DNA from: Candidatus Eiseniibacteriota bacterium
Lineage (GTDB): Bacteria; Joyebacterota; Joyebacteria; Joyebacterales; Joyebacteraceae
Direction: 5' to 3'
NCBI GenBank assembly: GCA_030595835.1
Contig: JAUVLG010000006.1
Coordinates: forward strand, 1-56,292
Length of the DNA: 56,292 nt
Under the pieces are notes generated by a model, which saw only the letters and a list, made by a program, of their open reading frames with translations, was not told the origin of the DNA and did no database searches. Shown piece by piece: positions 1 to 49,219 of the stretch; position 1 is the first letter of the stretch; every line of letters starts with the position of its first letter. The position numbers were made by a program, and so were the translations under genes.

Positions 1-3000
1 ATCGAAGTCCAGATCCAGGAAGTCCGCGAACTTGGCATCAATCGTGATCCTCTCGGCCAATCCGATGTCGTCACGAACATCAGACAGGCGGATGTCGTCC
101 AGCCAGATCTCGCCTGTGATGTCAGGATCGCCCGCCACGTCGTTCCGCACGCCGATGGTCAGTCTGCGGATCCTGGAGAGCGAGGGCCGGCCGACCACCT
201 CGAAGCGCTCTCTCCGGACCGCGTTCGTATCGCCCCACGCCCAAGCCACGCTGCATGTCTCGCACATACCCATCTTGAGATCCGTGAAGTCCGTGAACGG
301 GATGGTCAGCAGGTTGTCCCCGCTACTCCTGTCCTGGACCCACCCGGGCCTGACCTCCAGGCTGTACTCGTAGTAGTTGAGCGAGTCGCGCCCCAGACGC
401 ATGAAGAAGACCGTTCCCTCCTCCACGGCCGCGTCCCCATGGAGATAGAACTCGAGCGCCTGATAGCCCGTGTAGTCGTCTTCGGAGAACAGGATCTTCT
501 TAGCGGACGCCGTGTGCCCGGCGAGAAGATTCTCGTAGAGCAGGAAGAGGGACTGCTCGCGTTTGGGGAGATTCGTTTCGTTGTCGTTTTCCGGATCGAA
601 CGGCGGGTCGTAATCCACGTCCTCCTTCGTGTTCTTCGTCCCCACGCGGAAGTCCATGTCGCCCATCGCCGTGTCGGCAACGGCCACTCCGTCGGAATCG
701 AGGATCTGCTGCGGCTCCCACTGACTGCCGATGATGTCGATCGAGCCCACCATCAACTCCGTTGGTGCCACGGGCAGACCGTCTACCCAGATACGAGCCG
801 ACTTGATGGACAGCCACGAGCCAATGCCGTTGATGGGCTCGGCGTCCCCCAGTGGGATTCGGTACTTCCTCCAGTGGTTGCCAGCAACCAGCTCGCTGTT
901 GTCCTGGATCAGGTAGGTCGTATCCGACAGGTCGACCGACAACGTCCAGTAGCTGTTGTCCTTGTCGACGTAGCCGTTTCCGTTCAGGTCCTCCGTGTCC
1001 AAGCGCTCATTGCCCTCTGTGCCATTGATGCTGGAGTATTCTTCGGAACCGTACTCGAAGCTGTAGTCATCGTCACCGTCGTCGCCGGGAGTTCCATCTC
1101 CGTCGATGCCCGCCACGGTGTCGAGACCCACGTCCTCGTCCGCGTCGAATCCGTTCGGCGGCACGTCCACGTCCTCGGTGTCCAGCTCACCGTTCGGGGA
1201 CATCAGCGGGTAGTAGTCCTCGCTGATCGTGCCGAGGTCGATGTGGAAGGTACCGGTCGACTGCGCAGCCGATCCCCCGTCGTTGATCCACATCTCCACG
1301 AACTGATAGTCGGAGTAGTCGTTCCCCGTCTTCGACATGAGCCGCATCAGTCCGGCCCACGACGCCGCATCGATGCTGTCGCCGAATGACATCTCCAGCA
1401 CGCTGTGATTGTCATCGGCCTCCTGAGCCGGGAGGTCAGGGTGCAGGTCACCCTCCTGGACCTTCCGGTCGGGATTGTACCAGTCGATCCCAACGCGGTC
1501 AGCGGCCTGGATCTCAGCCACACCGGGAACACTCGACGGCACCCAGAGCCGCCTCGCCACCCCCAGCATGCTTCTGTTCTCAGCCCCCTCCATGTCGTCA
1601 ACGCTGACGAACCCCTTGGTGTTCGGGTTCGGGATCGAGACCGCCGCTTCTGCCGCGATCCTGAGGCGCGACGGCGCGTCCGTGTCTATGAACGGGATCG
1701 CATCCACAGCCTTGGTCATGAAATCCGGCGTGAAGTCAGCTGAGAAGTTCACATCGCCCACGACCGTGCGCGATGGTTCCTCACCCAGTCGCGGGTTGTC
1801 GTCAGGCGTGCCCTTACTCTGGTACATCCAGGTCGTTCCCAGCCTGACCTTCTCGCTCCAGTTGTACACTCCCCTCGCGCCCAGCAGCGTCTTCTCACCG
1901 GCGATGCCGAACGGCTTGTAGTCGTACTCCACGGTTACCTTGGCGTCCGGTTCCTTGGCCTCCGCCGCCAGAATTGTGAGCTGACCCGATGGGTAGTAGA
2001 TCGTGTAGTCCGTTCCCTTGGTCAACCTGACGCCGTTCAGGCGAACAACCTCGCTGTTCTCAATGATGTTGATCTGGCCAAGGTAGAAGGTGGTCTTCGG
2101 GCGGTTGTACTTGATGACAAGGTAGTAGTCGTCGTCACCCGCGTCGAAGTTGTCCTTCGAGTAGACCGCGCAGTTCTTGTCACTGTCATCGAACTCGTCG
2201 GCGTAGTAGATGGGATCGGGCTCGGCGCCCTCGGCGTAGTAGAACCCGGTGGTGTCATAGTCGGGACAGAACGGGGTGTAGTGGGGGAAACTGAGCAGTC
2301 CGTTCCGCAGGTCTACCCACGTCGGGTCGACGGTGCTCGAACCAACGCCCACGTCCTCGGTGTCGAGCCCGAGGAGCTTCGTGTAGGGCACGCCCGATGG
2401 GTGAACGTCCTGATCCTCGCCCGAGGCGGCGGCCCTGCGGATCGTCAGCTGGAATCCCTCTTCCGGGATGTCCTCAGCTCCCAGATCGTATATGTGCTTG
2501 AATTCGTAGAGCCGCGTTCTCTCCCAGCCGGCGGGTGTTGTTCTGTCGTCGTGCTTGATCATCTTCAGATGGAGCCGCTCACCGTCGTAGCCGCCGATCG
2601 CATCCCTATCGCTGCCCGTAACCCGCTCGTAGCTGACCGCCAGCATCCTGCCGGCACGTATGGCCCTGGTCATCACGATCACGCCCGACTGGTAACCCGA
2701 CTGCTCACCGTAGAAGCCGCTGCCCTGCGGGATGAAGTAGTCTTCGTCCTCTATGAGCTCAACGAAGAAACCCTCGCGTCTGTGCACGGTGTCCGCCGGA
2801 GCCCCCGCACCGGGGGGCTCCTCAAGATACGCGCTGCCCCCCTGCGCGCCGTCTTCGGCGTCGTTGGATGAGATTCGGTCGTCGAGGTAGACCGTGATCG
2901 CATCGACGGTAACGTCGGAGTACTTCAGCGCCAGATCGTCAATGACGAAGAACTTCCCGCTCTTGTAGGAGATGTCCTTGATAACCAGCGAATCCGATTC

Positions 3001-4335
3001 GGAGGTCCCCGTGAAGCTCGCGCCTGAGGACTGGCCCTCCTCCTTGCTCGCGATCGTGATCAGGTCGAACTTGCCGATCTTCGAGGTCATCTTCGCGCCG
3101 AAGAGCCCCTGGTGGTGACCGCTGTAGCTGACGAACTCGGTGCCCGGCAAAGAGAGATTGACCTCGCCGAGCTCTATCTTCTGAATGATCTCGTCCTCAT
3201 CGCCGTCGTAGCGCACCCGGATCTGGTCTGCCTTGACCCCACCGAACGTGTCGCCTCCACTGCGGTGGTCCACGTAGACGTGGATCTTGCGGCCGATCGT
3301 TCCTTCCAGATTGACGGTCAGCTGCTGCTCCATGTCCAGCTGCGGGAATCTCGACGGACGCCCGGCTTCCGTCTCGATCGCCTCTACCACGTAGCTCGTC
3401 TGCCCGCCGAACGTGATGCGTTCGCTTCCGCGCACCTTGAGATTCGCACCCGGACCAATCGCTCGAACAAACGGACCTGGCATCGGCATGGGAATATCGA
3501 TGTCCAGGAGCCCCCGCCCCTGATCGAGCTCACCCCTGCCAAGCCTACCAACGACGGCGGTCTTCCACGCGGCCTCCACGTACCCATCACCACTGAGATG
3601 CAGGTAGTGTTCGAGCGGCACCGCGCAGCTCACCCAGGACACGTGCTCGCCCACTTCCGTGACCATCAGGATCGTCTCATTCTCGCGGCTCACAATGACG
3701 CGGCGTGAGAACGGTACGGACAACGGGGCGCCGAGAGGTATCGAAGGCGCCCTGACAGCCAACCCCGGCGACAGCCCGGACACCATCGACCAGGGCCTCA
3801 GGAAGAGGTTGTTCAATGAAGGGAGAAGTGAAACGCCGATGGAGTAGGAAGCACGCGCTGCTGCGCGTTCAGGACCGGCGGCGAGGGAATCGGCGGCGGC
3901 CTCAAGAGTGTCACCGAATGGCGGAAAGGGTCCGATCGCAGTGAGGCTGTCCGCCTCTGCGACAGGGGGTCCGATCGCAGCGAGACCGTCCGCCGCCGCG
4001 ACAGGGGGTCCGATCGCAACGAGGCTGTCCACCTCTGCAACAGGAGGCTCGACCACAGCGAGGCTGTCCGCCGCCGCGACAGGGGACTCGACCACAACGA
4101 GGCTGTCCGCCGCCACGGCAGAGGGCTCGGTTGTGTCCAGGCTGTCAGTTCTGTCGCTGAAGCTCGCAATGAAATCCGCGATTTCCCTGCGCACGTCCAG
4201 AGCCGTTGGAAGGTCGCCGCCTTCGCCCCAGCTCTGACAGAACGCCGGACTGACACTGAGAAGCAGCAAGATCAGCGCGCCGACCGTCGCGGCTCTCGGA
4301 GAGACTATCGTCCGGACGGCGCCATCGAGGGACAT
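1..4335 (-). CDS. sprA: SprA-like type IX secretion outer-membrane translocon, 5' part (runs off left edge)
   Basis: 1445 codons are open from ATG 4335 to the window edge with no stop, so the gene is partial. GGAG lies 7 nt before the ATG. The N-terminus is a signal peptide (hydrophobic LILLLLSVSPAFC near residues 21-33), then a low-complexity linker with five 13-residue repeats (73-137), then a long beta-rich body. SprA-family hallmarks are LYEFKHIYDL near residue 610, NPNTKGFVSVDDMEGAE near 901-918 and GEIWLDDIRLSDV near 1410. Bacteroidota SprA/Sov proteins of about 2400 residues form the giant outer-membrane pore of the type IX secretion system, so roughly 900 residues are probably outside the window. 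It stands alone, divergent from lptF, with its own promoter. Family assignment is firm; function in this organism is inferred from Bacteroidota. Confidence 0.85.
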   Translation of the reverse strand, partial: MSLDGAVRTIVSPRAATVGALILLLLSVSPAFCQSWGEGGDLPTALDVRREIADFIASFSDRTDSLDTTEPSAVAADSLVVVESPVAAADSLAVVEPPVAEVDSLVAIGPPVAAADGLAAIGPPVAEADSLTAIGPFPPFGDTLEAAADSLAAGPERAAARASYSIGVSLLPSLNNLFLRPWSMVSGLSPGLAVRAPSIPLGAPLSVPFSRRVIVSRENETILMVTEVGEHVSWVSCAVPLEHYLHLSGDGYVEAAWKTAVVGRLGRGELDQGRGLLDIDIPMPMPGPFVRAIGPGANLKVRGSERITFGGQTSYVVEAIETEAGRPSRFPQLDMEQQLTVNLEGTIGRKIHVYVDHRSGGDTFGGVKADQIRVRYDGDEDEIIQKIELGEVNLSLPGTEFVSYSGHHQGLFGAKMTSKIGKFDLITIASKEEGQSSGASFTGTSESDSLVIKDISYKSGKFFVIDDLALKYSDVTVDAITVYLDDRISSNDAEDGAQGGSAYLEEPPGAGAPADTVHRREGFFVELIEDEDYFIPQGSGFYGEQSGYQSGVIVMTRAIRAGRMLAVSYERVTGSDRDAIGGYDGERLHLKMIKHDDRTTPAGWERTRLYEFKHIYDLGAEDIPEEGFQLTIRRAAASGEDQDVHPSGVPYTKLLGLDTEDVGVGSSTVDPTWVDLRNGLLSFPHYTPFCPDYDTTGFYYAEGAEPDPIYYADEFDDSDKNCAVYSKDNFDAGDDDYYLVIKYNRPKTTFYLGQINIIENSEVVRLNGVRLTKGTDYTIYYPSGQLTILAAEAKEPDAKVTVEYDYKPFGIAGEKTLLGARGVYNWSEKVRLGTTWMYQSKGTPDDNPRLGEEPSRTVVGDVNFSADFTPDFMTKAVDAIPFIDTDAPSRLRIAAEAAVSIPNPNTKGFVSVDDMEGAENRSMLGVARRLWVPSSVPGVAEIQAADRVGIDWYNPDRKVQEGDLHPDLPAQEADDNHSVLEMSFGDSIDAASWAGLMRLMSKTGNDYSDYQFVEMWINDGGSAAQSTGTFHIDLGTISEDYYPLMSPNGELDTEDVDVPPNGFDADEDVGLDTVAGIDGDGTPGDDGDDDYSFEYGSEEYSSINGTEGNERLDTEDLNGNGYVDKDNSYWTLSVDLSDTTYLIQDNSELVAGNHWRKYRIPLGDAEPINGIGSWLSIKSARIWVDGLPVAPTELMVGSIDIIGSQWEPQQILDSDGVAVADTAMGDMDFRVGTKNTKEDVDYDPPFDPENDNETNLPKREQSLFLLYENLLAGHTASAKKILFSEDDYTGYQALEFYLHGDAAVEEGTVFFMRLGRDSLNYYEYSLEVRPGWVQDRSSGDNLLTIPFTDFTDLKMGMCETCSVAWAWGDTNAVRRERFEVVGRPSLSRIRRLTIGVRNDVAGDPDITGEIWLDDIRLSDVRDDIGLAERITIDAKFADFLDLDFD
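3925..4119 (-). repeat. five tandem 39-bp repeats encoding 13-residue units in the SprA linker
   Basis: Five consecutive in-frame 39-bp units encode variants of VAAADSLAVVEPP, at residues 73-137 of the SprA-like protein, just after the signal peptide. The units are imperfect (ending ESP, EPP, GPP, GPP, GPF), so this is an old expansion. It probably forms an acidic, extended periplasmic linker. Confidence 0.85.
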
Positions 4336-4478
4336 TGGAAGACTCCGATTTCGAGAAGCGCGCCCGGCGCGCGCCGTATTGCGGACCGAAAGCGACCGCG
4401 GGGCGTCCCGTACGTCGCTCACACGGCGCCCATGCACGGCTCCACAAGAGACGACGACCAGCTGCTACGCCGGAGCGG

Positions 4479-4721: not shown

Positions 4722-6077
4722 ATGAGCACTCTGTCCAGGTACGTTCTCAGAGCGCACATCCCCCCCGCCGCGGCGGGACTCGCCATTTTCTACTTCGTTC
4801 TCTCCATGGACTTCATCGTCGACTACCTGAACCTCTTCATCGCCAAGGGAGTCCCCGGTCTGGCCGTGCTCGAGGGGTTCCTCCTCAGCCTCGCCTGGAT
4901 GACGGTGATGGCCGTTCCTATGGCAGTGATGGTCGCCGTCCTCACGGCCTTTGGACGGCTCTCCGCGGACAACGAGGTCACCGCCGCCAAGGCTACAGGC
5001 GTGAACATCTTCACTCTGATCGCGCCGGTTCTGACCGCCTCCGTGATCATCGCCCTGGGGCTCTTCTGGTTCGGGAATCACATGCTCCCCGCCGCCAATC
5101 ACCGGCTGAAGAAACTCCTGGTGGACATCCACAGGATACGCCCGCTCGCGACCATCGAGCCGGGCATCCTCACCGAACTGCCCGGGGGCTACAGCATCCT
5201 GGTGGACAAGCTCGACCCCAGAACATCGGAAGTCTCCGGAGTGAGGATCCACCGGCACGAGGGCACAGAGCCCCTCCAGACGATCGTGGCCGAGCGAGGG
5301 CACATCAGCAGCGAAGGGGGAGACGAATTCGTGCGCCTGGAACTCCTCGACGGCGAGATCCATGAGGTGGACCCGGATGATGCGACGCGGTTCAACCGTC
5401 TGCTATTCGAGCGCCATGTCATCAACATCGAGCAGGGGTCCTCGGAGCTCGTCAGGAACGACGGCACGAGGCGCGGGGACAGGGAACTCTCTCTGGCCGA
5501 GCTCGGCTCCCGCATAGCCGTTCGCCGCGAGGACGCCGACGCCGCTACGGTCAAGGTCGCGGACGGGCTGGAAACCCATCTGGCAGAGCTACTGGACCTC
5601 GCTGACGGCACCTCTACGCTCCCTCTGACCGCCGACATGCGAGCCAGTCGCAGCCGGATGCTGCGGTCCGCGGAGTCAGACCTTCGGGCTCAGGCAAGCA
5701 GCTTGAGACAGGTGCGGCGTCTCGAGGTGGAATATCACAAGAAGCTCTCGATCCCCTTCGCCTGCGTGGTCTTTGTGCTCGTCGGGGCCCCGCTCGGGAT
5801 CAGGAGCAAGCGCGGTGGGGTTGGTATCGGGGCGGGCACCGGCATACTGTTCTTCCTGATCTACTACCTGTTCCTTGTCGGTGGCGAGCAGCTGGGCGAT
5901 CGCGGCTTTGTCACACCGTTCTGGGCCATGTGGACACCCAACGTTGTTTTCGGAGGACTCGGCCTCTTCCTCACGCTCTCCGTGTCGCGCGAGTGGCGAT
6001 TCCCACGCATCAGGAAGGGGCTGGGAACTGTGCTCCGTGCCCTTCACAGGCCACGGGCCCGCACGGAGACCACATGA
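4722..6077 (+). CDS. lptF: LPS export permease LptF (YjgP/YjgQ family)
   Basis: A 451-residue inner-membrane permease of the LptBFG ABC transporter that extracts lipopolysaccharide and passes it to LptC. It has three N-terminal transmembrane segments (residues about 10-115), a periplasmic beta-jellyroll-like region, and three C-terminal segments. The LptF/G hallmark MAVMVAVLTAFGRLSADNEVTAAKATG lies near 65-95 (its core is GRLSADNEVTAAKATG). It is about 90 residues longer than E. coli LptF because of a charged, probably helical insert at about 240-330. The stop overlaps the lptG start as ATGA. LptF versus LptG is assigned by order and similarity and could be swapped. Confidence 0.9.
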   Translation: MSTLSRYVLRAHIPPAAAGLAIFYFVLSMDFIVDYLNLFIAKGVPGLAVLEGFLLSLAWMTVMAVPMAVMVAVLTAFGRLSADNEVTAAKATGVNIFTLIAPVLTASVIIALGLFWFGNHMLPAANHRLKKLLVDIHRIRPLATIEPGILTELPGGYSILVDKLDPRTSEVSGVRIHRHEGTEPLQTIVAERGHISSEGGDEFVRLELLDGEIHEVDPDDATRFNRLLFERHVINIEQGSSELVRNDGTRRGDRELSLAELGSRIAVRREDADAATVKVADGLETHLAELLDLADGTSTLPLTADMRASRSRMLRSAESDLRAQASSLRQVRRLEVEYHKKLSIPFACVVFVLVGAPLGIRSKRGGVGIGAGTGILFFLIYYLFLVGGEQLGDRGFVTPFWAMWTPNVVFGGLGLFLTLSVSREWRFPRIRKGLGTVLRALHRPRARTETT

Positions 6078-7147
6078 GCATCATCGACACCTACGCCCTC
6101 AGGAAGATAGGCGGGCCCCTGGCCATCATGCTCTGTCTGTTCGCGGGCATCTTCGTGCTGGTCGATCTGTTCGATCACGCCCACTCGTTCATAGACAACG
6201 ACGTCACGCTGGGCGTCGTTTTCTCATACTACGCGTACTACCTCCCCCTCATAGTCGTCCTGACATCGCCGGTGGCGATGCTCCTTGCCACTCTCCTTGC
6301 CGTTGGTGGGCTGGCGAAGAACAACGAGCTAATGGCGCTCAAAGGATCGGGCGTCAGCCTTTACCGGATCCTCGCGCCGGTGCTCGCTCTCGCGGTCGCG
6401 GTCAGCCTCGCCAACGTGCTCATCGGCGAGCTGATCCTGCCCTCAGCCACGCGCCATCGTCTTCAGATCAAGGAGACCACCATCTCGCGGCGCGCGAGCG
6501 AGGTTGTCACAACCGACCCTGTCTACGTGAGCCCCGACGGCACTATGTTCCATGCGCGGAGACTCAACTCGCGAACGAGAACTCTGGAGGAGATCACTGT
6601 CGAGGAGTTCGACCAGGCCAACAGCCCGACCAGCAGAATCGATGCGAAATCAGCGGTGTGGGAGAACGGCCAGTGGGTGTTCTACGACGGCAGTCTGAGA
6701 CGCTTCACGACCACCGGTGAGGAGGTGACCAACTTTGACACGCTGGAGCCCGGTTACTCGGAACCCCTCCCGGGCGAACTCGGCGTGCGCAAGCTCCATC
6801 CCGACGAAATGCCCTTCCGTGAGCTCCGATCCTACATCTTGAAGTTGCGCGCCACTGGGAGTGACCCGCGTGATCTTACGGTGCAGCTGCGGCTCAAGAT
6901 CGCCTTCCCATTCATCACCGTGATCATGACGCTCCTCGGCGGAACCCTCGTGGCCGGGGCGCGGCGGAGCGGCTTCGCCCGCTCTTTCGCGGCCGCGCTG
7001 GCCATCTCGTTCTTCTACTATGGGGCGCTGCAGGTGGGTCAGGTACTGGGCCGCCAGGGCATACTCATGCCCTGGCTGGCCGCGTGGATATCCAACATCA
7101 TCTTCGGAGGAATCGGGGTGGGCCTACTCATACGAGCCCCGAAGTAG
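6074..7147 (+). CDS. lptG: LPS export permease LptG (YjgP/YjgQ family)
   Basis: The second LptBFG permease subunit, 357 residues from ATG 6074, which overlaps the lptF stop by 4 nt (ATGA). A longer upstream reading frame exists, but the ATGA coupling and the family-like N-terminus MSIIDTYALRKIGGPL decide the start. It shows the usual three N-terminal and three C-terminal membrane segments around a periplasmic domain, and the core GLAKNNELMALKGSG near residues 80-95. The cognate ATPase gene lptB and bitopic partner lptC lie on the minus strand near 23-24 kb. The next gene, ahcY, is convergent. Confidence 0.9.
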   Translation: MSIIDTYALRKIGGPLAIMLCLFAGIFVLVDLFDHAHSFIDNDVTLGVVFSYYAYYLPLIVVLTSPVAMLLATLLAVGGLAKNNELMALKGSGVSLYRILAPVLALAVAVSLANVLIGELILPSATRHRLQIKETTISRRASEVVTTDPVYVSPDGTMFHARRLNSRTRTLEEITVEEFDQANSPTSRIDAKSAVWENGQWVFYDGSLRRFTTTGEEVTNFDTLEPGYSEPLPGELGVRKLHPDEMPFRELRSYILKLRATGSDPRDLTVQLRLKIAFPFITVIMTLLGGTLVAGARRSGFARSFAAALAISFFYYGALQVGQVLGRQGILMPWLAAWISNIIFGGIGVGLLIRAPK

Positions 7148-7193: not shown

Positions 7194-8450
7194 CTACGTA
7201 CCCACCTTCCAGGACGCCAGATACTCGACCTGCTCCGGTGTCAGCGTGTCTATGTTCACGCCCATCGACGAGAGCTTGAGCTTGGCCACCCCGTGGTCGA
7301 TCTCCTCGGGCACGGTGTGCACACGGACCGGCAGCTTCTCCGACAGCCCAGCGAGATACTCGCAGCAGAGCGCCTGGTTGGCAAAGCTCATGTCCATGAC
7401 CGCCGCAGGATGTCCTTCCGCGGCGGCAAGGTTTATCAGTCGCCCCTCCCCCAACAGGTTGATCCGCTTACCGCCCGCGAGCACGAACGTCTCCACGGAG
7501 TCACGAGGAGTGCGCACATCGGTCGAAAGCGCATGGAGAGCATCCTTGTCGATCTCGACGTCGAAGTGCCCCGAGTTCGCGACGATCGCTCCATCCTTCA
7601 TGGCCTCGAAGTGGCGTCCGGTCAGCACGCGGATGTCGCCTGTCAGCGTCACGAAGACATCTCCCAGCACCGCCGCCTCGTCCATCGGCATCACGCGAAA
7701 TCCGTCCATCGTCGCCTCGAGCGCCTTGAGCGGGTCCACCTCCGTGATCACGACGGATGCACCGTGGCCGCGCGCTCGATGGGCCAGTCCTCTCCCGCAC
7801 CAGCCGTAGCCCGCGATCACGAATGTCGACCCCGCCAGAAGCGTGTTGGTCGCGCGCAGGATCCCGTCGATCGTGCTCTGCCCCGTGCCGTAGCGATTGT
7901 CGAACATGTGCTTGGTGTCGGCGTCGTTCACGGCGATCACGGGGACCTTGAGCTCTCCGTCCCTCTCCATGGCACGCAGCCGGATCACACCGGTCGTCGT
8001 CTCCTCCATACTCCCGAGGAGGTTCGGGATCAGCTCCTGCTTCTCCGTGTGAATGGTCGAAACCAGATCAGCGCCGTCGTCCAGCGTGATCGACGGCCCC
8101 GCATCGAGAATCGCCCTGATGTGGTCATAGTAGCTCTCGTTGTCCTCGCCCCTGACCGCGTACGTCGACACCCCGTGGTCCACGGTCAGGTGGGCCGCGA
8201 CGTCGTCCTGTGTCGACAACGGATTCGAGGCGCAGAGTGAGACCAACGCCCCGCCGGCCTTGAGCGTTATCATCAGATTGGCGGTCTCGGTGGTCACGTG
8301 CAGGCACGCTCCGATTGCCACGCCGTCCAGAGGGCGTTCTCGTTCGAAACGCTCACGGATGCCGGCGAGCACCGGCATACTCTGAGCCGCCCACTCGGTT
8401 CTGTCGCGTCCCTTCGGTGCCAACCTCTCGTCTTTGATGTCGTTCGGCAT
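7194..8450 (-). CDS. ahcY: adenosylhomocysteinase
   Basis: Hydrolyses S-adenosylhomocysteine to adenosine and homocysteine, removing the inhibitory by-product of SAM-dependent methylation. The 418-residue protein shows [10 protein letters not shown] and [14 protein letters not shown] in the substrate domain, [13 protein letters not shown] near residue 190, and the NAD-binding glycine motif GYGWCGRG near 215. It is the shorter form and ends in WKVGT rather than the KPDHYRY tail of the longer bacterial/eukaryotic enzymes, like archaeal and Thermotoga-type proteins. It starts 5 nt downstream of the metK stop, so the two probably form a SAM-cycle operon at the end of the long minus-strand run. 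Confidence 0.95.
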
Positions 8451-8454
8451 GAAC

Positions 8455-9612
8455 CTATCCCTTCCTGATGTCAGCCACCATGTCCGTGCGTTCCCATGTG
8501 AAGTCCGGCTCCTCGCGGCCGAAGTGACCGTAGGCGGCCGTCGGCAGATAGATCGGTCGTCTGAGCTCGAGCCGCTCGATAATGGCAGCAGGCTTCAGGT
8601 CGAAGTGCTTCTTGACGATTCCCACCAGCTCGCCGTCACTGAGCTCGCTCGTCCCCATCGTGTTCACCATGATCGAGATGGGCTCGGCCACACCGATGGC
8701 GTACGCGATCTGGATCTCGCAACGACCGGCCAGTCCGGCCGCGACCAGGTTCTTGGCCGCGTGCCTGGCCGCGTACGAACCCGACCTGTCGACCTTGGTC
8801 GGATCCTTACCCGAGAAGCAGCCACCGCCGTGGCTTCCCAGCCCACCGTAGGTATCGACGATGATCTTCCGGCCCGTCAGCCCACAGTCGGCGTGAGGAC
8901 CACCCCGGACGAACCGCCCCGTGGGGTTGACGAGCAGCCTGTAGTTCCCACCAGAGACAAGTTCGGCGGGCAGCATCGGCTCCACCACGTGTTTGCGAAT
9001 TGCATCGCCAAGCGAGTCCATGTCGACGTCCGGATGGTGCTGCGTCGAGACGACGACCGTGTCGATCCGCGCGGGAGCGCCGTTCTCGTACTCCACCGTC
9101 ACCTGCGTCTTGCCGTCGGGTCGAAGGTAATCAAGCGTCCCGTCCTCGCGTACATCCGCGAGCCTGCGCGCCAGCTTGTGCGCCAGGTGGATGGGCATGG
9201 GCATAAGTTCCTTCGTCTCGTCCGTCGCGTAACCAAACATCATCCCCTGATCGCCCGCGCCACCCTCGTGCACTGCATGTCCCCTTGAGTCACCCATCCA
9301 GATGTCGGACGACTGCTCCCCGATCGCCGTTACCACTGCACACGTCTCCGAGTCAAAACCGTACGACGCGTCTGTGTAACCGATCTTTCTGATGGTGTCG
9401 CGCACCACGGTGGGGATATCAACGTACGCATCCTTCGTCGAGATCTCTCCGGATATGAACGCCATCCCGGTGGTCACGAGTGTCTCACACGCCACGCGCC
9501 CCAACGGATCCTGAGAGAGGATGCCGTCCAGGATGGCGTCCGAGATCTGATCCGCGACCTTGTCGGGGTGCCCCCCCGTCACCGACTCCGATGTGAAAAG
9601 GTGCTTCTCCAA
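8455..9612 (-). CDS. metK: S-adenosylmethionine synthetase
   Basis: Makes SAM from methionine and ATP. I place the start at TTG 9612 (385 residues): it is preceded by GGAGGG about 6 nt upstream and gives the family N-terminus [18 protein letters not shown], whereas the longer ATG (9639) adds a nine-residue tail absent from the family. Conserved [38 protein letters not shown] and [15 protein letters not shown] (phosphate-binding loop) are all present. It is followed directly by ahcY and lies 53 nt downstream of the sugar nucleotidyltransferase; the gap is too short for a SAM riboswitch. Confidence 0.95.
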
Positions 9613-9665
9613 GCGTACCCTCCGTTCATGTTTAGCCATGCCGCACCCAGGTCCGGAACCTCGGG

Positions 9666-48070: not shown

Positions 48071-49219
48071 CTATCGGTACAGTAACTTGACTCGTCCCCA
48101 GGTGATCGTCTGGACTGGAGTCGCCCCGCAGCCTACGCCCAACGCACCGATCCCGCCACAGTCCGGGTTGCTCTCGGGCGCACACGGCGAATCGCTATGC
48201 AGTGAGTAGCGCTCTGACGGATTCGCGCTGTGGCAAAACAGAGGGTCCTTTCCAATGTTGCCGTCGACGCCATTCTGTCCCGATATGCAGCCGATCCAGT
48301 CCCCGTACTCGTTCTGAAACACGTCGCAGCAGCTGAGGAGCGCGGTGCCCCCGGGCCCAGAACATGCTACCGCCTCTCCCTTATAACCGAACGCAATGAT
48401 GCTCCGTACCCCGATCAGCGTCGAGGTCCCGTCGACGTAGATGCCGCTGCCGCCAACGCCCATGTTTCCCACGAGTGTGCACCTCTCGATCGTCAGAGTC
48501 GAACCAGTGATGCACCCCAGTGCACCTCTCGAGTCGCCCGCGTTTTCCAGGAGCAGGCATTCGCTCAACTCCGGAGCCGAACCATCGGAGCACGAGACCG
48601 CTCCGCCCATATCCGAGGAATTCGCGAAGAACAGGCAGCGTCTGACCCGGGGTGCCGCACCCTGGGAGCAGTAGAGCGCTCCGCCTTCCCCCTCGGCCGC
48701 AAGCTCGGATGAGTTCCCATGGAACACGCAATCGGCGATGAGCGGAGAGGCCGCGGTGCACGCCACGGCCCCGCCCACCCCGACGGTCCCATTCCCGGAG
48801 AACCTGCAGTTCCTCATGATCGGCCAGGAGCCCTTGCAGTACACTGCGCCACCGATGTCGTGGGATCCTCCTGTGATTGTGAAGCCGTCCAGGACGGACG
48901 TTGAGTCCTCACCGCTCGCGAAGAGGAAGCCTCTCCCGGCGCTCGAGCAGTCCACGATGGTCAGCCCGGCGCCCGACTCGGAGACGAGGACAAGATTGGT
49001 CCCGCCGAAGTCGATGTCACGGTTCAGGGAACCCGTGTAGGTCCCCGCCGCCACGAGGACCGTGTCCCCGGAACTCGCCGCGTTGACCGCTTCCTGAATG
49101 GTGGGCTGCTCACCCGGTACCCGGATGATAGCCGCGCTTCCGGAGGAAGGTGCGAATCCCAGACAGAGAACCACCGCCCCCACCACGACACCGGCCTTCA
49201 CAACCTCTCGAGGACTCAC
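48071..49219 (-). CDS. secreted right-handed beta-helix protein with PMP-like repeats
   Basis: 382 residues, GTG start with GGGAGGAAC. A signal peptide (GVVVGAVVLCLGFAPSSGSAA) precedes the pectate-lyase-like opening IRVPGEQPTIQEAVNAASSGDTVLV. The body has repeated GGAVxC units (GGAVYC, GGAVAC, GGALYC, GGAVSC) separated by about 25 residues, as in polymorphic outer-membrane/parallel beta-helix proteins. Many cysteines. It ends TWGRVKLLYR, a short conserved-looking tail that I have seen on FCB-type surface proteins and that may be a sorting tag. It could be a cargo of the SprA-type secretion system. Confidence 0.85.
   Translation of the reverse strand: MSPREVVKAGVVVGAVVLCLGFAPSSGSAAIIRVPGEQPTIQEAVNAASSGDTVLVAAGTYTGSLNRDIDFGGTNLVLVSESGAGLTIVDCSSAGRGFLFASGEDSTSVLDGFTITGGSHDIGGAVYCKGSWPIMRNCRFSGNGTVGVGGAVACTAASPLIADCVFHGNSSELAAEGEGGALYCSQGAAPRVRRCLFFANSSDMGGAVSCSDGSAPELSECLLLENAGDSRGALGCITGSTLTIERCTLVGNMGVGGSGIYVDGTSTLIGVRSIIAFGYKGEAVACSGPGGTALLSCCDVFQNEYGDWIGCISGQNGVDGNIGKDPLFCHSANPSERYSLHSDSPCAPESNPDCGGIGALGVGCGATPVQTITWGRVKLLYR

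Follow-up and report, generated by a model that had tools for sequence, protein, structure and literature searches.

According to current models of type IX secretion, the GldLM proton motor is essential, and in Bacteroidota the GldL-GldM motor, together with the GldN ring, extracts loaded PorV from SprA. When GldLM is disabled in F. johnsoniae, cargo becomes trapped on the translocon (PMC10994853), which makes the lack of GldLM described below a real puzzle. A 2023 review regards the system as strictly confined to Bacteroidota and traces it to one origin, in the ancestor of that phylum (PMC10202324), and a survey likewise restricts it to that phylum (PMC4793230). Nonetheless, type IX secretion has been suggested elsewhere (PMC11285876) and also in FCB phyla, for which one paper tabulates SprA in phyla other than Chlorobiota (PMC12611786). 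Two further papers describe components of the system in Fibrobacter succinogenes (PMC6851124) and sorting domains in Ca. Kryptonia (PMC4737851). The case presented here resembles those in PMC6851124, PMC4737851 and PMC12611786 in that SprA and/or type A sorting domains occur outside Bacteroidota; however, these texts, as far as searched, do not state whether a motor is present, whereas here its absence was tested over 290 genomes.

The DNA analysed (hereafter the window, 56,292 nucleotides) comes from a Candidatus Eisenbacteria-type bacterium and contains two thirds, on the 5' side, of the single sprA gene that this genome possesses. A minus-strand frame spans positions 1-4437 with no end before the contig edge. 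Translation probably begins at the ATG at 4335, downstream of a CGGAG, which places the N-terminal 1445 codons of an SprA/Sov translocon gene inside the window (1-4335, minus strand), truncated at base 1. The encoded protein matches the NCBIfam equivalog TIGR04189 with 431 bits (cut-off 200; E 8e-129) and, above the cut-off, the Pfam domain SprA_N (PF14349; 10-999, minus strand; E 9e-12), while its best solved relative in a phmmer search is F. johnsoniae SprA (PDB 6h3i; E 4.5e-28, four collinear blocks). These matches to SprA profiles and to the structural relative are far above chance level. The original prediction of an SprA-like giant translocon at this position is thus borne out, including by the SprA_N profile that had been proposed as a check, and both SprA blocks that it quoted were located, i.e., NPNTKGFVSVDDMEGAE at 1579-1629 (minus strand), within the region aligned to 6h3i, and GEIWLDDIRLSDV at 76-114, within SprA_N. 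The signal peptide that it described corresponds to the hydrophobic stretch MSLDGAVRTIVSPRAATVGALILLLLSVSPAFC (4237-4335, minus strand), read by eye from the sequence ahead of QSWGEGG (4216-4236).

The remainder of the gene lies on another contig (C224, bases 1-3089) of this assembly (2.85 Mb in 265 contigs, 98.5% complete, 1.4% estimated contamination), where the frame reads on to a stop codon and the SprA profile is matched up to position 2304 of 2319. The 1445 aa encoded in the window and the ~710 from C224 amount to ~2155 residues, a length in keeping with a giant barrel (about 2000-2400 aa); in relatives, sprA is one uninterrupted frame that encodes about 1900-2400 aa. The assembly breaks at window base 1 because a 971-bp stretch (window 1-971 and C224:1-971) exists as two alleles. 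The gene order of relatives is metK, sahH / lptG, lptF / sprA, an M28 enzyme, rimP, nusA, infB, of which the left part corresponds to the window and the right part to C224; since the two contigs rebuild this order, they represent one sprA locus in two alleles. In the window, the conserved neighbours are the divergently oriented genes lptF (4722-6077) and lptG (about 6068-7147; plus strand, 4722-7147; LptF_LptG, PF03739), whose order is kept in relatives, followed by a conserved flank with S-adenosylhomocysteine hydrolase-like (7194-8450) and MetK-like (8455-9639) genes (minus strand, 7194-9639; names read from the sequence). The two alleles share 86% identity, the flanks of the gene being merged into single contigs, and the differences between the allelic proteins are concentrated in one short stretch. 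Owing to this clustering, diversifying selection may be acting on the allelic part of SprA.

Two other origins of the locus were weighed. If the contigs carried two distinct sprA paralogues, each half assembled, the nucleotide identity across the 971 bp, which is low for strains, would be easily understood; however, the two sequences are near-identical at either end of the overlap, the pattern typical of an assembly bubble, and the relatives carry one gene, in an order that joins both contigs across sprA. The paralogue pair was rejected on account of the single gene in relatives and appears very improbable. The fragmentation of the bin and its estimated contamination might, in turn, suggest that sprA and the associated genes are a binning artefact or stem from contaminating Bacteroidota. 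Against this, SprA is present in almost every genome of the phylum (18 of 20 at E 1e-10), and a tree built from 34 SprA sequences places it there in one clade (SH-aLRT 100), amid further lineages that lack the motor, while the SprA of G222, the only genome in our survey with both SprA and Gld proteins, sits on a long branch elsewhere. Furthermore, the gene keeps a conserved order with housekeeping genes, and its product is 25% identical to the Bacteroidota copy. Contamination was rejected because of the phylum-wide occurrence, the gene order and the separate clade, and we give it practically no credence. The neighbours of sprA recur in unrelated families (lptFG in 5 and the M28 enzyme in 6 of 16), and this shared gene order would sit better with a long history of vertical inheritance than with a recent acquisition from Bacteroidota.

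The genome also encodes partners of SprA. PorU (C172:56009-60064) exceeds the cut-off of the equivalog NF033707 (524 vs. 420 bits), PorU 6za2 is the solved structure closest to it, and GHG and SC (the His-Cys pair) are kept in the alignment. PorV follows directly (C172:54963-56000), with 236 bits for NF033709 (cut-off 90) and 77 for PF19572 (cut-off 27), and is closest among solved proteins to PorV 6h3i_F (E 3.6e-25). The adjacency of the two genes is found in 10 of 10 loci of the family and in 12 of 20 distant loci. T9SS C-terminal type A sorting domains gave 83 matches in the genome, 78 of them above the curated cut-off, with a profile that overlaps FlgD-like Ig domains; in all 24 cases inspected, the domain abuts the stop codon. 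Gingipain-family (C25) domains match at 19 genomic sites and are predicted to be part of the secreted repertoire. Given SprA, PorU, PorV and 78 sorting domains, the translocation and attachment half of a type IX system is present.

Several other features of these loci are worth recording. In the window genome, PorU-PorV is followed by an M6-protease protein (C172:51716-54913, minus strand; L076:11716-14913), in which FG-GAP repeats, a sorting domain and an intact HEVAH are seen. It is the constant third gene after PorU-PorV, including in the distant loci L141, L144-L148 and L150-L155, and may correspond to PorZ. The PorU-PorV cluster of the family also conserves, beside an Omp85 protein, a 1139-residue protein with two SprA-repeat-like stretches (38 bits; C172:45565-48984, minus strand; L076:5565-8984). 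In distant genomes (L142, L146, L152, L154, L155), PorV reaches 755-893 residues, apparently because its barrel is interrupted by a large insert. The M28-family enzyme found 3' of sprA (L003, on C224; 3089-4000, plus strand) is closest to glutamine cyclotransferases and follows sprA also at L167, L170, L171, L174, L182, L184, L185, L187, L190 and L194, distant genomes included. A link through this enzyme to the N-terminal glutamine rule was considered and dropped, as the few signal peptides viewed (PorV, M6) have no post-cleavage glutamine.

With the F. johnsoniae SprA-PorV and P. gingivalis Sov-PorV-PorU systems, the following is shared: SprA and PorU lie above equivalog cut-offs, a PorV-family shuttle is encoded beside PorU, type A domains abut stop codons, and C25 domains occur. 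However, this PorV, although well above the PorV/PorQ subfamily cut-off, reaches only 164 of the 250 bits that the stricter PorV equivalog requires, and, unlike in Bacteroidota, GldL, GldM and GldN are not detectable. In the window genome, no match was obtained for GldL at E 0.1 or for GldM at E 1, and profile searches at permissive thresholds detected no GldL, GldM or GldN in the 20 genomes of the phylum (the window genome and 19 relatives), the GldL/GldM searches yielding one weak match of coiled-coil type (G017). GldK was found in none of them at E 1e-40, a threshold too strict for a divergent GldK (~95 bits expected), which would escape it and could therefore be missed. It should be noted that the Gld profiles were built on Bacteroidota, and distant homologues can be missed. 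The SprA of the window genome scores about 16% of what the Bacteroidota SprA of G222 does; the same scaling gives expected scores of ~31 bits for GldL, ~25 for GldM and ~29 for GldN, which should have shown in the searches if rates are equal. By these profile searches, the GldL-GldM motor and the GldN ring are not recognisable in this genome.

The original prediction had left two outcomes to a search of the whole genome, and neither was obtained as worded. That search did return porV and porU, but no gldL, gldM or gldN, and no gldK at E 1e-40. Since neither the genome nor its phylum yields a detectable GldL, GldM or GldN, a GldKLMN gliding and secretion machine is unsupported, none of these three components of a gliding apparatus being found in the genome. 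The other suggestion, that SprA may work alone, was too strong, since a shuttle, a sortase and cargo are all encoded and what is missing is the motor and the ring. The broader claim of type IX secretion outside Bacteroidota holds as to the components, i.e., SprA, PorU, PorV and 78 sorting domains, but not as a novelty, as the occurrence of SprA there has already been published (PMC12611786).

The absence of the motor is not peculiar to this phylum. Our survey covered 290 genomes, of which 20 belong to the phylum and all others to different bacterial groups. SprA was detected in 106 of them (77 above the cut-off) and PorU-type sortases in 97, with 72 carrying both; outside the phylum, 54 genomes have both, and the co-occurrence is strong (Fisher p 5e-16). 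Apart from G222, the survey genomes with SprA presumably lie outside Bacteroidota. GldL, the GldM N-domain, GldN and GldK were clearly present in just two of the 290 genomes, G081 and G222, which served as positive controls; a borderline GldM match in G227 (25.3 bits, with a stop within the frame) is probably due to chance. Assembly gaps are not the cause of the absence, since 70 SprA genomes besides G222 are at least 95% complete, and two of these (G077 and G159) are single-contig. G081 (L082, L178) shows the reverse combination, a motor without the known pore: GldK, GldL, GldM and GldN are present, and SprA is absent at E 1e-10.

The best explanation is probably that of an SprA-PorV-PorU type IX system with about 80 cargo proteins and without a recognisable GldLM/GldN. 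From the components and the missing profile matches, transport, attachment and an energy source can be proposed by analogy with F. johnsoniae and P. gingivalis. SprA would be the outer-membrane channel, PorV the shuttle and PorU the sortase, acting on cargo tagged by the type A domain. Sec would export the cargo; PorV would capture its C-terminal domain inside SprA and take it through to the surface, where PorU would cleave this domain and attach the cargo. Most likely, loaded PorV would be extracted either with a different source of power (folding of the cargo, exchange of PorV, cleavage by PorU, a TonB/Tol-type energiser) or by an unrelated motor.

It might be objected that the system is a full one, whose GldLM-type motor has diverged beyond the reach of profiles. 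The trapping of F. johnsoniae cargo without GldLM (PMC10994853) does lead one to expect an energiser, and SprA itself is just 25-30% identical to the Bacteroidota form. However, SprA, PorV and PorU were readily found in the same 20 phylum genomes that gave no match to GldL, GldM or GldN, and about 100 SprA genomes, single-contig ones included, show the same absence, which makes such divergence unlikely. In mechanism, GldLM is analogous to ExbBD, TolQR and MotAB, all of them proton-driven stators. This analogy would allow a general TonB-ExbBD or TolQR energiser to have been recruited in place of GldLM to power the outer-membrane half, but no such gene stands beside sprA or porUV in the loci read, and we consider this proposal, too, rather doubtful.

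Returning to the SprA-PorV-PorU system without a recognisable motor, the survey points to the outer-membrane half as the core that is widespread, and to the rotary motor as a feature of Bacteroidota. Tentatively, and with nearly as much to be said for it as against it, type IX secretion may exist in two forms: a widespread motor-less core (SprA, PorV, PorU and sorting domains) and a second form, that of Bacteroidota, which gained GldKLMN and with it powered export and gliding. The presence of SprA beyond Bacteroidota had been published before (PMC12611786); what is new is the motor-less system as a common state. In the literature searched, which took in few subscription papers, no report of a missing motor in these systems turned up. 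Should some hundred genomes of many bacterial families indeed possess translocon, shuttle, sortase and cargo and yet do without the motor, then either export works motor-free or another motor awaits discovery, and either outcome bears on the evolution of the rotary gliding machine.

A further claim, that the beta-helix protein at 48-49 kb is a possible cargo, did not fare well. This protein (48071-49219, minus strand; Beta_helix, PF13229) ends in ATPVQTITWGRVKLLYR, and no profile match to a type A sorting domain was found on its contig (C127). It was therefore rejected as type A cargo, and because its C-terminus, PVQTITWGRVKLLYR, is a different, short tail, it is not established as type IX cargo. 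The tail follows the near-identical pattern PVExx[ST]WGxIKALYR-stop (~15 residues), found in 14 frames, five of them in tandem, in 486 kb of the genome, a density biased by the choice of these stretches for sorting domains. Beyond this genome, 0.72 Mb from the family gave four further occurrences, each of them in G003, and 1.0 Mb from other genomes gave none. Besides the window protein, carriers are located at L197:7963-13585, L198:12422-13648, L200:369-893, L203:12455-13312, L210, L211 and L212, and, in G003, at L222 and L225.

No NCBIfam model matches the tail, and no carrier has both the tail and a type A domain, i.e., the two are mutually exclusive. Prevotella intermedia has short sorting domains of 43-55 residues, which keep the usual motifs (PMC11969387). 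Those domains resemble the tail in being C-terminal and below the usual 70-100 residues, but the tail is only ~15 residues long and different in sequence, and on this comparison it was set apart from the P. intermedia type. The tail may represent a new short sorting or anchoring signal, a tag of this kind being the simplest guess. Hydrophobic N-termini are found in 9 of 11 tail carriers, compared with 105 of 349 other proteins (p 0.0008), and one carrier has a choice-of-anchor J domain, the name of which refers to varying C-terminal anchors.
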